Source: Gammaproteobacteria bacterium (GTDB lineage: Bacteria; Pseudomonadota; Gammaproteobacteria; Steroidobacterales; Steroidobacteraceae). Taken from it: DNA of 33,159 nucleotides. The notes beneath the pieces were generated by a model. It did no database searches and was not told where the DNA came from. It worked only from the letters and a program-made list of their open reading frames with translations. Positions 6,315-13,007 of this stretch are shown one piece after another. Within the stretch, counting starts at the first letter, position 1. Every line of letters starts with the position of its first letter. The DNA lies in the NCBI GenBank assembly GCA_005877965.1, contig VBNP01000028.1, positions 1 to 33,159 of the forward strand, read 5' to 3'. The position numbers and the translations under genes were made by a program.

Positions 6315-6914
6315 ATGGCGAGTGCCCGATCCCGGATCTCCCGCCGCGCCGCCGAGGGCGCGGTGCGCACGCTGTTGCGCTGGGCGGGTGAGGATCCGCG
6401 CCGCGAGGGCCTGCGCGCCACGCCGCGCCGGGTCGTGGATGCCTACCGCGACTGGTTCTCCGGCTATCAGATCGACCCGGCCGCCTACCTGCGGCGCACC
6501 TTCGAGGAGGTCGGCGGCTACGACGAGATGATCGTGCTGCGCGACATCAGCTTCGAGTCGCATTGCGAGCACCACATGGCTCCCATCATCGGCCGGGTGC
6601 ACATCGGCTACCTGCCCGCCAACAAGGTGGTGGGCATCAGCAAGCTCGCGCGCGTGGTCGACGGCTACGCGCGGCGTTTCCAGGTGCAGGAGAAGCTCAC
6701 CTCCCAGATCGCCGACTGCATCACCGAGGTACTGAGGCCGCGCGGCGTGGGTGTGGTCGTGGACGCCGTGCACCAGTGCATGACCACGCGCGGGGTGCAC
6801 AAGCGCAACGTGTCGATGGTCACCAGCCGCATGACCGGCACCTTCCGCAGCGACGCCCGCACCCGGGCCGAGTTCCTGCGCTTCATCGACATCACCGGCG
6901 CGCGCGAGCTCTGA
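6315..6914 (+). CDS. folE: GTP cyclohydrolase I
   Basis: 199 aa with [60 protein letters not shown] and [18 protein letters not shown]; Zn-ligand Cys/His motifs present. Confidence 0.97.
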
Positions 6915-6964: not shown

Positions 6965-8788
<1,824 letters not shown>

Positions 8789-9346: not shown

Positions 9347-9438
9347 AGGCTAGCGACACTCCCGGACGACACGGCTGGCGCGGACCGGCGGGCCATGGGG
9401 CGGTCGCGGCAGGCCTGTATTGCGGGCGCGGTTCGTGC

Positions 9439-9458
9439 TGTTGTACGATCGTTCAACA
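9439..9458. promoter_or_regulatory. Palindromic operator candidate upstream of the Rieske/FAD/TetR gene set
   Basis: TGTTGTACGATCGTTCAACA: inverted repeat with only one mismatched pair; overlaps a possible -10 (TACGAT, 9444-9449) with TTGCGG at 9420-9425, 18-nt spacer. Confidence 0.6.
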
Positions 9459-9485: not shown

Positions 9486-10661
9486 ATGAAACCCAGCCGC
9501 CTGCAGTCAGTCGAACCCGCCGCGCCCGCCGACACCGACGGCCTGAGTCTACCCGCCTGGATTTACCACGATGCGGAATTCTTCGCGCGCGAGCAGCAGG
9601 CGATCTTCCGCAACAGCTGGCAGCTGGTGTGCCACCTGAGCGACGTGCCGCGCCCGGGGGACTTCCATACCTTCGAGTTCTACGGCGAATCGGTGCTGGT
9701 GCTGCGCGCCGAGGACGGCGCGCTGCGGGCATTTCACAATGTCTGCCGCCACCGCGCGGCACGCCTGCTCGACGGGCCGCGCGGCCACTGCGGCCGCCGC
9801 ATCACCTGCCCGTACCACGCCTGGACCTATGCCCTCGACGGACGCCTCATCGGCGTGCCGCAGCGCGACAGCTTCAGCGGGCTCGATCGGGCGCGGCACG
9901 GGCTGGTGCCGCTCGAGCACGAGGTGTTCAAGGGCTTCATTTTCGTGCGCTTCGCGCCCGGGCTGCCGAGCGTGCGCGAGATGGCGGCGCCGTACGAGCA
10001 CGAGCTCGCGCCCTACCGCCTGGAGGAGCTGGTGCCGCTCGGGCGCGTCACCCTGCGTCCGCGGGCGGTGAACTGGAAGAACGTCGCGGATAACTATTCC
10101 GACGGGCTGCACATCAACGTCGCGCACCCGGGCCTGACCCGCCTGTTCGGCCAGGGCTACGGCATCGAGGCGCGGCCCTGGATCGACAAGATGTGGGGCA
10201 CGCTGCGCGATACACCTTCCGCCAACTGGTCGGAGCGGCTCTATCAGCGGCTGCTCCCGCAGCTCACCGCTCTGCCGCCCGAACGGCAGCGACTGTGGAC
10301 CTACTTCAAGCTCTGGCCGAACCTCGCCTTCGACATCTACCCCGACCAGATCGACTTCATGCAGTTCCTGCCGGTGTCGCCGACCGAGACCCTGATCCGC
10401 GAGATCGCTTACGCGCACCCGGACGCTCGCCGCGAGATGCGCGCCGTGCGCTATCTGAACTGGCGCATCAACCGGCGCGTCAGTCTCGAGGACAAGGCGC
10501 TGATCGAGCGGGTGCAGGCCGGCATGGCCTCGAGCAGCTATACCTGCGGACCCTTGAGCGAAGGGGAGGTGTGCCTGCGCAGTTTCGCGCGGCGCATGCG
10601 CACCCTGATTCCGGAAAGCGTCCTGCCGCGGGCTCCGGCGCGCGGGTGGAGCCATGGGTGA
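9486..10661 (+). CDS. Rieske 2Fe-2S aromatic-ring-hydroxylating / quaternary-ammonium-type oxygenase alpha subunit
   Basis: Rieske motif CRHRAARLLDGPRGHCGRRITCPYHAWTY and mononuclear-iron motif NWKNVADNYSDGLHINVAHPGL; MKPSRLQSVEPAAPADTDGLSLPAWIYHD start at 9486. Confidence 0.93.
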   Translation: MKPSRLQSVEPAAPADTDGLSLPAWIYHDAEFFAREQQAIFRNSWQLVCHLSDVPRPGDFHTFEFYGESVLVLRAEDGALRAFHNVCRHRAARLLDGPRGHCGRRITCPYHAWTYALDGRLIGVPQRDSFSGLDRARHGLVPLEHEVFKGFIFVRFAPGLPSVREMAAPYEHELAPYRLEELVPLGRVTLRPRAVNWKNVADNYSDGLHINVAHPGLTRLFGQGYGIEARPWIDKMWGTLRDTPSANWSERLYQRLLPQLTALPPERQRLWTYFKLWPNLAFDIYPDQIDFMQFLPVSPTETLIREIAYAHPDARREMRAVRYLNWRINRRVSLEDKALIERVQAGMASSSYTCGPLSEGEVCLRSFARRMRTLIPESVLPRAPARGWSHG

Positions 10662-12297
10662 GGCGGCGCGGCGCGCCGAGCGGCGCTGCGATGCGCTGAT
10701 CATCGGCGGCGGACACAACGGGCTGGTGTGCGCCGCGTACCTGGCGGCGGCGGGGCTCAAGGTCACCGTGCTCGAGCGGCGCGCGGTGGTCGGTGGCGCC
10801 GCGGTCACCGAGGAGTTCCATCCCGGGTTTCGCAACTCGGTCGCCGCCTATACGGTCTCGCTCCTGAACCCGAAGGTCATCCGCGATCTCGATCTCGCCG
10901 GCCACGGCCTGCGCATCATCGAGCGACGCTGCGCCAACTTCCTGCCGACCGCGGACGGGCGCTACCTGCTCACCGGCGAGGGCCGCACGCAGGCGGAGGT
11001 GGCGCGCTTCTCGGCGCGCGATGCGGCACGCCTGCCCGAGTACGGCGAGCGGCTGGAGGCCATCGCGGACGTGCTGCGGGACCTGGCGCTGACCACGCCG
11101 CCGAATGCGCTCGAGGGCAGCTGGCGCGCGGCGCTGCCGGAGCTGGTGCGCGCGGCGCGCGTGGGCGGCCGCCTGCGGCGGCTCGACATGAGCTCGCGGC
11201 GCGAGCTGCTGGCGCTGTTCGCCATGTCGGCCGGCGACTACCTCGATAACTGGTTCGAGAGCGACCCGATCAAGGCGGTGTACGGCTTCGACGGCATCGT
11301 CGGCAACTACGCGAGCCCCTATTCGGCGGGTTCCGCCTACGTGCTGCTGCATCACGTGTTCGGCGAGGTGAACGGCAAGCGCGGCGTGTGGGGCCACGCC
11401 ATCGGCGGCATGGGCGCCATCACCCAGGCGATGGCGCAGGCCGCGACGGCGCGCGGCGCGCTGATCCGTGTGGCGACCGCGGTGCGCGAGGTCCTGGTCG
11501 AGGGCGATCGCGCGGTCGGGGTGCTGACCGAGTCGGGCGAGAGCCTGCGCGCGGCGGCCGTGATCTCCAATCTCAACCCGAAGCTGCTGTACCTCGAGAT
11601 GTTCGCACCTGAGGCCCTGCCGCCGGAGTTCCGCGAGCACATCAGTCACTGGCGCTGCGGCTCCGGGACCTTCCGCATGAACGTGGCGCTCACCGAACTG
11701 CCGGATTTCAGCTGTCTGCCGGGAAGGAAGCCCGCCGACCATCACACCGCGGGCATCATCATCGCGCCGACGCTCGCTTACATGGAGCGCGCCTACTTCG
11801 ATGCGCGCACCCACGGCTGGTCACGAGCGCCGATCATCGAGCTGGTGATCCCCTCGACGCTCGACGACACGCTCGCCCCCCGGGATAAGCACGTGGCGAG
11901 CCTGTTCTGCCAGCACGTGGCGCCGCAGCTGCCCGGCGGTGAGTCCTGGGACGCGCACCGCGAGGCGGTCGCGGATCTGATGATCGACACGGTGAACGCC
12001 TACGCCCCCAACTTCAAGGCGGCGGTGCTCGGCCGTCAGATCATGAGTCCGCTCGATCTGGAGCGCACCTTCGGCCTCATCGGCGGCGATATCTCGCACG
12101 GCACGCTGAGCCTCGACCAGCTGTTCTGCGCGCGCCCGATGCTCGGCTACGGCAACTACCGCGGACCGCTGCAGGGGCTGTACATGTGCGGCGCCGGCAC
12201 GCATCCGGGCGGGGGCGTGACGGGCGCCCCGGGTCACAACGCGGCGCGCGAGATCTTGAGCGATTTTCGCCGCGGGCGACTGCGGCGGGTGGCGTGA
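10654..12297 (+). CDS. FAD-dependent oxidoreductase, PYROXD2 / phytoene desaturase-like (CrtI/amine oxidase superfamily)
   Basis: ALIIGGGHNGLVCAAYLAAAGLKVTVLERRAVVGGAAVTEEFHPGFRNSVAAY dinucleotide-binding motif; C-terminal GLYMCGAGTHPGGGVTGAPGHNAAREIL. Starts 8 bp inside the preceding gene. Confidence 0.92.
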   Translation: MGEAARRAERRCDALIIGGGHNGLVCAAYLAAAGLKVTVLERRAVVGGAAVTEEFHPGFRNSVAAYTVSLLNPKVIRDLDLAGHGLRIIERRCANFLPTADGRYLLTGEGRTQAEVARFSARDAARLPEYGERLEAIADVLRDLALTTPPNALEGSWRAALPELVRAARVGGRLRRLDMSSRRELLALFAMSAGDYLDNWFESDPIKAVYGFDGIVGNYASPYSAGSAYVLLHHVFGEVNGKRGVWGHAIGGMGAITQAMAQAATARGALIRVATAVREVLVEGDRAVGVLTESGESLRAAAVISNLNPKLLYLEMFAPEALPPEFREHISHWRCGSGTFRMNVALTELPDFSCLPGRKPADHHTAGIIIAPTLAYMERAYFDARTHGWSRAPIIELVIPSTLDDTLAPRDKHVASLFCQHVAPQLPGGESWDAHREAVADLMIDTVNAYAPNFKAAVLGRQIMSPLDLERTFGLIGGDISHGTLSLDQLFCARPMLGYGNYRGPLQGLYMCGAGTHPGGGVTGAPGHNAAREILSDFRRGRLRRVA

Positions 12298-13007
12298 ACG
12301 GCCGCGGCGCCTCGGTGGCGCGCGCGTCCCGCGGGCGGGCGCGCCGGCCGCGTTTCGAGCGCCAGCTGCCGCAGCAGCGGCGCCAGGCGCTGATCGACGC
12401 CACCATCGAAAGTCTCAAGCGCTACGGTCACGCGGGACTGTCGATCCGCACCATCAGCGCCCAGGCCGGCGTGTCGGTCGGTCTCATCAATCATCACTTC
12501 CCCAACAAGAACCAACTCATCGCGGCGGCCTACCGGCACTTCAACAGCGAGCTGGTCGGCGGCCTGCAGGCGGCGGTGGCGCGTGCCGCGGATTCGCCCC
12601 GGGCACGCATGCGCGCCTTCCTCGAGGCGTCCTTCTGCCCGCCGAATCTCGACCAGGACGCGCTCGCGGTGTGGGTGGTGTTCTGGGGGCTGTACCGGCA
12701 CTCGCGCCTGATCCAGCGGGTGCAGCGTGACACCTACCGCGGCTACGTGCGCCTGTTGCGCGGCATGCTCGCCGAGCTGCTGGCGCAGGCGCGCGCGCCG
12801 CACAGCCGCCGCCCGCGAGGCGCTGCGCGCGCGGCGCGCGGCGCGGCGCGGCCGGACCTGCGCCTCGCCGCCATCGGGCTCACCGCGCTCCTGGATGGCC
12901 TGTGGCTCGAATGGTGTCTGGAGCCGGGCGCCTTCCGGCCCGCCGAGGCCGTGGCGCTGTGCGAGGCGTGGGTGGAGGATCTGTGCCGGCGCGCCAGCGG
13001 TTCCTGA
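12294..13007 (+). CDS. TetR family transcriptional regulator, BetI-like
   Basis: GTG at 12294 overlaps preceding stop; RRQALIDATIESLKRYGHAGLSIRTISAQAGVSVGLINHHFPNKNQLIAAAYRHF (TetR HTH) and BetI-like C-terminal FLEASFCPPNLDQDALAVWVVFWGLYRHS. Confidence 0.88.
   Translation: MNGRGASVARASRGRARRPRFERQLPQQRRQALIDATIESLKRYGHAGLSIRTISAQAGVSVGLINHHFPNKNQLIAAAYRHFNSELVGGLQAAVARAADSPRARMRAFLEASFCPPNLDQDALAVWVVFWGLYRHSRLIQRVQRDTYRGYVRLLRGMLAELLAQARAPHSRRPRGAARAARGAARPDLRLAAIGLTALLDGLWLEWCLEPGAFRPAEAVALCEAWVEDLCRRASGS

Follow-up and report, generated by a model that had tools for sequence, protein, structure and literature searches.

The operon and its promoter region

Within the stretch of 33,159 nucleotides analysed here (the window), three genes on the forward strand lie end to end with overlapping boundaries. 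The first (9486..10661) encodes a Rieske oxygenase alpha subunit (Pfam PF00355 and PF00848), for which the nearest solved structure is the carnitine monooxygenase CntA. The second (10654..12297) encodes an FAD oxidoreductase of the CrtO/phytoene-desaturase-like type (Pfam PF01593, with the NCBIfam CrtO model below its cut-off), and the third (12294..13007), which has a GTG start, encodes a TetR-family regulator with TetR_N (PF00440) and BetI-type C-terminal (PF13977) domains, in agreement with the BetI-like TetR that a preliminary description of this DNA had placed last in the set. Because the FAD gene overlaps the end of the Rieske gene by 8 bp and the tetR start overlaps the FAD stop by 4 bp, the three genes very probably form one transcript. 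A divergent DUF2721 gene (PF11026; 8921..9346, reverse strand) provides the upstream context, and two further genes near the operon, a GTP cyclohydrolase I-like gene (6315-6914, forward strand) and a TypA/BipA-like GTPase gene (6965-8788, reverse strand), were recognised by eye.

The regulator scores 120.5 bits against BetI model NF001978 (cut-off 118) and 119.6 bits against TIGR03384 (cut-off 201.3). Its best solved relative is PDB 3e7q (E 1.8e-42), which we take to be a P. aeruginosa-type TetR protein; a literature search on that entry found nothing. It is the only BetI-like TetR encoded in its own genome at E<=1e-30, and the region of its recognition helix hardly varies between close members. 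The same genome encodes a second Rieske oxygenase (G000:C149:16397-17551), 43% identical to that of the window and without an exact copy of the site described below.

Between the DUF2721 and Rieske genes lies the 20-bp dyad TGTTGTACGATCGTTCAACA (9439..9458, unstranded), a candidate TetR operator on the basis of its sequence and its conservation in orthologous loci, where the conserved portion is the 16-bp core TTGTACGATCGTTCAA (9441-9456). Nine of its ten base pairs are symmetric, the mismatched pair being T9444 and T9453, and 27 bp separate its 3′ end from the Rieske ATG at 9486. The forward-strand promoter comprises a -35 element TTGCGG (9420..9425) and, at a spacing of 18 bp, a -10 element TACGAT (9444..9449) that is located within the dyad and holds its sole asymmetric base, T9444. 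The position and near-perfect symmetry of the palindrome, its distance from the start codon, and its overlap with this promoter had all been given in the preliminary description, and each was reproduced.

Symmetry is weak evidence at this locus because comparable dyads are frequent in the window: eight 20-bp dyads with at least nine of ten symmetric pairs were found in this 70% GC sequence vs. 5.8 expected from Markov simulations, which is not above chance, and palindromy was rejected as stand-alone evidence. The chance of one such dyad in the 139-bp intergenic stretch is ~0.018. A search of the window allowing up to three mismatches returned only 9439-9458, and in the 2.79-Mb, 82%-complete genome, the window site was the sole match to TTGNACGATCGTNCAA at zero or one mismatch. 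Three further matches there, each with two mismatches, look like chance, and a wide regulon in this genome was rejected given the single copy. The site is taken as real because it is conserved across orthologous loci.

Conservation of the dyad upstream of orthologous operons

The preliminary description had proposed aligning the upstream regions of orthologous loci and had named absence of the palindrome from them as evidence against its proposal. We aligned, without motif anchoring, the upstream regions of 24 nonredundant loci whose Rieske genes are at least 70% identical, and the dyad is conserved. The only strongly conserved noncoding columns are the TTG of the -35 element and TGTACgaTCGTTCAA, a pattern that supports promoter and operator alike. 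The TTG is found 17 to 20 bp from the -10 element in all 24 loci (17 bp in 6, 18 bp in 17, and 20 bp in 1) and at any other offset in at most 2 of the 24. Every locus that has kept the dyad also has a -10 element of the form TACNNT, and dyad-less L015 has TAGAGT. In the unanchored alignment, only the side facing the Rieske gene is conserved; visual inspection identified the DUF2721 start in a single upstream region (G060/L043).

Three orthologs, L015, L018, and L019, lack the site when up to three mismatches are allowed. In two of them no related TetR is detectable and the dyad has decayed, and the third has a divergent TetR (42% identity) together with CTATACGGTTGTACAA. At a separate locus (L128; G003:C19, 98093 onward), CTGTACGCTCGTTCAA is followed by a Rieske-like start and then by only the C-terminal 90 residues, an arrangement resembling an internal deletion of the Rieske gene.

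Co-occurrence of the dyad with close TetR homologs

Close homologs of the TetR protein (E < 1e-80) are encoded in 23 genomes of the genus, 18 of which carry the site at zero or one mismatch; for the remaining five (G005, G009, G025, G031, and G061), the upstream DNA is lost beyond a contig end. Close TetR and site therefore co-occur in 18 of the 18 genomes in which upstream DNA is assembled. Two genomes, G008 and G030, encode a Rieske protein gene 75-77% identical to that of the window and no BetI-like TetR at E<=1e-30; in both, the promoter TTGACC-18-TAGAGT is kept and the dyad has decayed. Genome completeness is 97% for G030 and 70% for G008, so that the absence of TetR from the latter is soft. 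Loci at which a different TetR (37-42% identical) is encoded divergently from the Rieske gene have an altered dyad, CTGTACAGTCGTTCAA or CTATACGGTCGTACAA, and in these TetRs the recognition helix reads SPGLITHHF or SPGLINHHF vs. SVGLINHHF. Counted against the linkage are G002 and G078, which have the site before Rieske-FAD genes with no adjacent TetR and encode elsewhere their only BetI-like TetRs, of 44-47% identity. At one further locus (L199; G097:C72), genes for an OYE protein, a second Rieske protein, TetR, Rieske, and FAD proteins follow one another on one strand; the exact operator is absent there, and the second Rieske protein carries the ECYHC hallmark of Group V.

Exact copies of the core precede several enzyme families

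A search of 217 genomes of the family for the exact 16-bp core detected 18 copies in 17 genomes, and the reversed pattern, used as a control, gave no match in the same genomes. A sample of 396 genomes from the order yielded no additional sites. Fourteen of the 18 copies precede a Rieske gene, and one precedes FAD-tetR at a locus missing the Rieske gene. The remaining three are single cases: one copy is found in G060 before a GcvT-type gene that has FAD genes behind it, one before a trimethyllysine/butyrobetaine-type dioxygenase gene in another genus (G097), and one in the interval separating a BetI-like tetR from a divergently oriented mttB in a third genus (G180), where the promoter TTGACG-17-TACGAT faces tetR. 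The G097 dioxygenase scores 309.9, above the trimethyllysine dioxygenase cut-off of 268.3; it also closely resembles gamma-butyrobetaine dioxygenase and TmpA. In G060, Rieske-tetR and GcvT-FAD occupy separate loci with an exact copy at each (L115/L177 and L143). In the genome scan for further copies that had been suggested as a means of defining the regulon, the organism's own genome contributes one site, and its relatives have further copies ahead of genes for GcvT, a trimethyllysine/butyrobetaine-type dioxygenase, and MttB.

Many distant relatives of the regulator share the half-sites

Fifty-six distant TetR relatives (40-48% identity) were scanned from -250 to +60 of their own starts, allowing at most one mismatch. 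The pattern TTGNAC-N4-GTNCAA was found at the regulator's own start in 38 of the 56, compared with 0.021 occurrences per 310 bp elsewhere in those loci. The dyad-bearing relatives include Kiloniella, Paracoccus, Alsobacter, Lutibaculum, and Pseudomonas, and since Pseudomonas dominates, the 38 are not independent. The dyad was absent in the other 18, including the Rhizobium/Ciceribacter and the P. nitroreducens/citronellolis sets, which we count against the pairing, and when new dyads were sought upstream of those Rhizobium and Pseudomonas relatives that have none, no consistent alternative emerged. The Rhizobium/Ciceribacter loci (L058-L066) encode relatives of 46-48% identity, with no dyad and no obvious substitute; L058, the one of these inspected, has a glutamine-synthetase-like gene nearby.

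The dyad of the distant relatives is symmetric, TTGAAC-N4-GTTCAA. In the group to which the window belongs, the left arm is TTGTAC, and it is to this T that the -10 element owes its TA. The asymmetric pair may therefore be conserved because this T makes the -10 element, and the embedded -10 element can account for the one-base departure from symmetry.

Comparison with characterised BetI-like systems

Like BetI of E. coli, P. aeruginosa, and S. meliloti and BetI1 of R. pomeroyi, the regulator combines TetR_N with a BetI-type C-terminal domain and is encoded with its presumed targets, and the dyad likewise lies over promoter elements and has TTGA..TCAA outer half-sites. However, the betI box is ATTGACG.CGTCAAT with adjoining halves, according to the R. 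pomeroyi study (PMC12442346), whereas the window halves TTGNAC and GTNCAA are 4 bp apart, and the Rieske-FAD-tetR operon is without betA, betB, or betT. R. pomeroyi BetI2, also a BetI-type regulator, is described in the same study as having boxes that share AAACTTGAAC, which contains a TTGAAC half-site, and that do not match the betI box; these form two overlapping palindromes in the betI2-betTA divergon, unlike the one operon-head dyad here. The window site thus looks less like the betI box than like the site of a second BetI-like class. The Pseudomonas relatives of the regulator have TTGAAC-N4-GTTCAA at their gene, but their dyad is symmetric without an embedded TACGAT, and their neighbours are different, for example an AstE/AspA-like gene.

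The Rieske protein departs from the characterised carnitine and betaine enzymes. It has DNYSDGLHINVAH where CntA, of the quaternary-ammonium Group V, has DNYMECYHCGPAH (DG..HI vs. EC..HC), and so is without the bridging Glu and Cys pair of that group (E205/C206/C209 of CntA), and it scores 150 bits against the GbcA model NF058607, for which the cut-off is 670.

The dyad as a predicted operator of the operon's own TetR

A TetR-sized dyad is present in the promoter of a TetR-encoding operon and is conserved together with the regulator across genomes. The site overlaps the promoter, is conserved, is linked to the regulator, and recurs before other enzyme genes, all of which argues that it is a TetR operator, and from sequence comparison we consider it highly likely that the operator belongs to the operon's own BetI-like TetR. 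The pairing of dyad and TetR proposed in the preliminary description gains support from the same promoter overlap and conservation, from the co-occurrence of TetR with the site, from loss of the site where TetR is undetectable, and from the half-sites of distant relatives. A TetR dimer would bind TTGTAC-GATC-GTTCAA (9441-9456) and would cover the -10 element and probably also the start point, which makes occlusion the most economical reading of repression. Transcription of Rieske-FAD-tetR would be blocked, and tetR would thereby repress itself, until the dimer was released by a small molecule, for which an N-methylated (trimethylammonium-type) substrate of the operon is the most likely candidate.

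An improbable alternative is that the dyad is a true operator bound mainly by a different BetI-like regulator from another locus; the operon's TetR would then share the site or act on other targets. The site-bearing genomes whose BetI-like TetRs are all at other loci (G002 and G078), and the paralogous TetRs that pair with similar dyads before mttB, favour this alternative, but the single BetI-like TetR of the window's own genome at E<=1e-30 is the one in the operon, close TetR and site are found together wherever upstream DNA is assembled, and distant relatives have the half-site at their own gene. Some TetR-family members activate transcription, and activator sites typically lie upstream of -35; the dyad lies over the -10 element, a repressing position, which leaves activation or mixed effects by the bound TetR very unlikely. 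Mixed effects do find a parallel in R. pomeroyi BetI2, which shifts its site preference with choline (PMC12442346). That the dyad is a chance palindrome or a leader RNA hairpin or attenuator is the least credible reading: dyads of its quality are frequent in the window, but this one is strongly conserved while its flanks are not, and most of it precedes the expected start point and would not be transcribed whole, so that an RNA hairpin was rejected on position relative to the -10 element.

A possible methylated-amine regulon

The genes found behind the cassette or its close variants in relatives are of GcvT type, of trimethyllysine/butyrobetaine dioxygenase type, and of the MttB family, the last with variant cassettes such as TTGTACGCTTGTTCAA and similar sequences. 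In G078, a gene whose product is related to trimethylamine/histamine dehydrogenases has TTGAACGATCGCTCAA ~150 bp upstream. The GcvT, dioxygenase, MttB, and dehydrogenase-like families all include enzymes acting on methylated amines. Since the cassette precedes GcvT, dioxygenase, and MttB genes, the effector of the predicted operator may well be a methylated amine, a proposal that we regard as evenly balanced. The missing Group V Glu and Cys pair makes the substrate class of the window Rieske protein uncertain and counts against a simple carnitine or betaine reading.

At two loci (L180 and L181, in G069 and G006), an FAD oxidoreductase gene 80% identical to that of the window is found beside an MttB-family gene and a BetI-like tetR, with an OYE/trimethylamine-dehydrogenase-like gene nearby. 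The comparison suggests that the FAD enzyme is a common partner of different demethylases.

Somewhat more tentatively than the effector assignment, we propose that a BetI-like subfamily with its own 16-bp operator, TTGNAC-N4-GTNCAA, which differs from the betI box, controls interchangeable N-methylamine enzymes in the Steroidobacteraceae and senses their common trimethylammonium compound. These enzymes would comprise the Rieske oxygenase, the GcvT-type, MttB-type, and trimethyllysine/butyrobetaine-type dioxygenase proteins, and possibly a trimethylamine-dehydrogenase-like enzyme, usually accompanied by one FAD oxidoreductase of unassigned role. As a regulatory element the site is of an ordinary kind, and the comparative evidence for it is unusually clean. 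It gives an uncharacterised operon of uncultured soil bacteria a predicted operator and matching regulator, and its 16 bp serve as a sequence handle that links several unrelated enzyme families, confines guesses about the substrate to methylated amines and, as a lead to a regulon for these compounds, is of modest interest.
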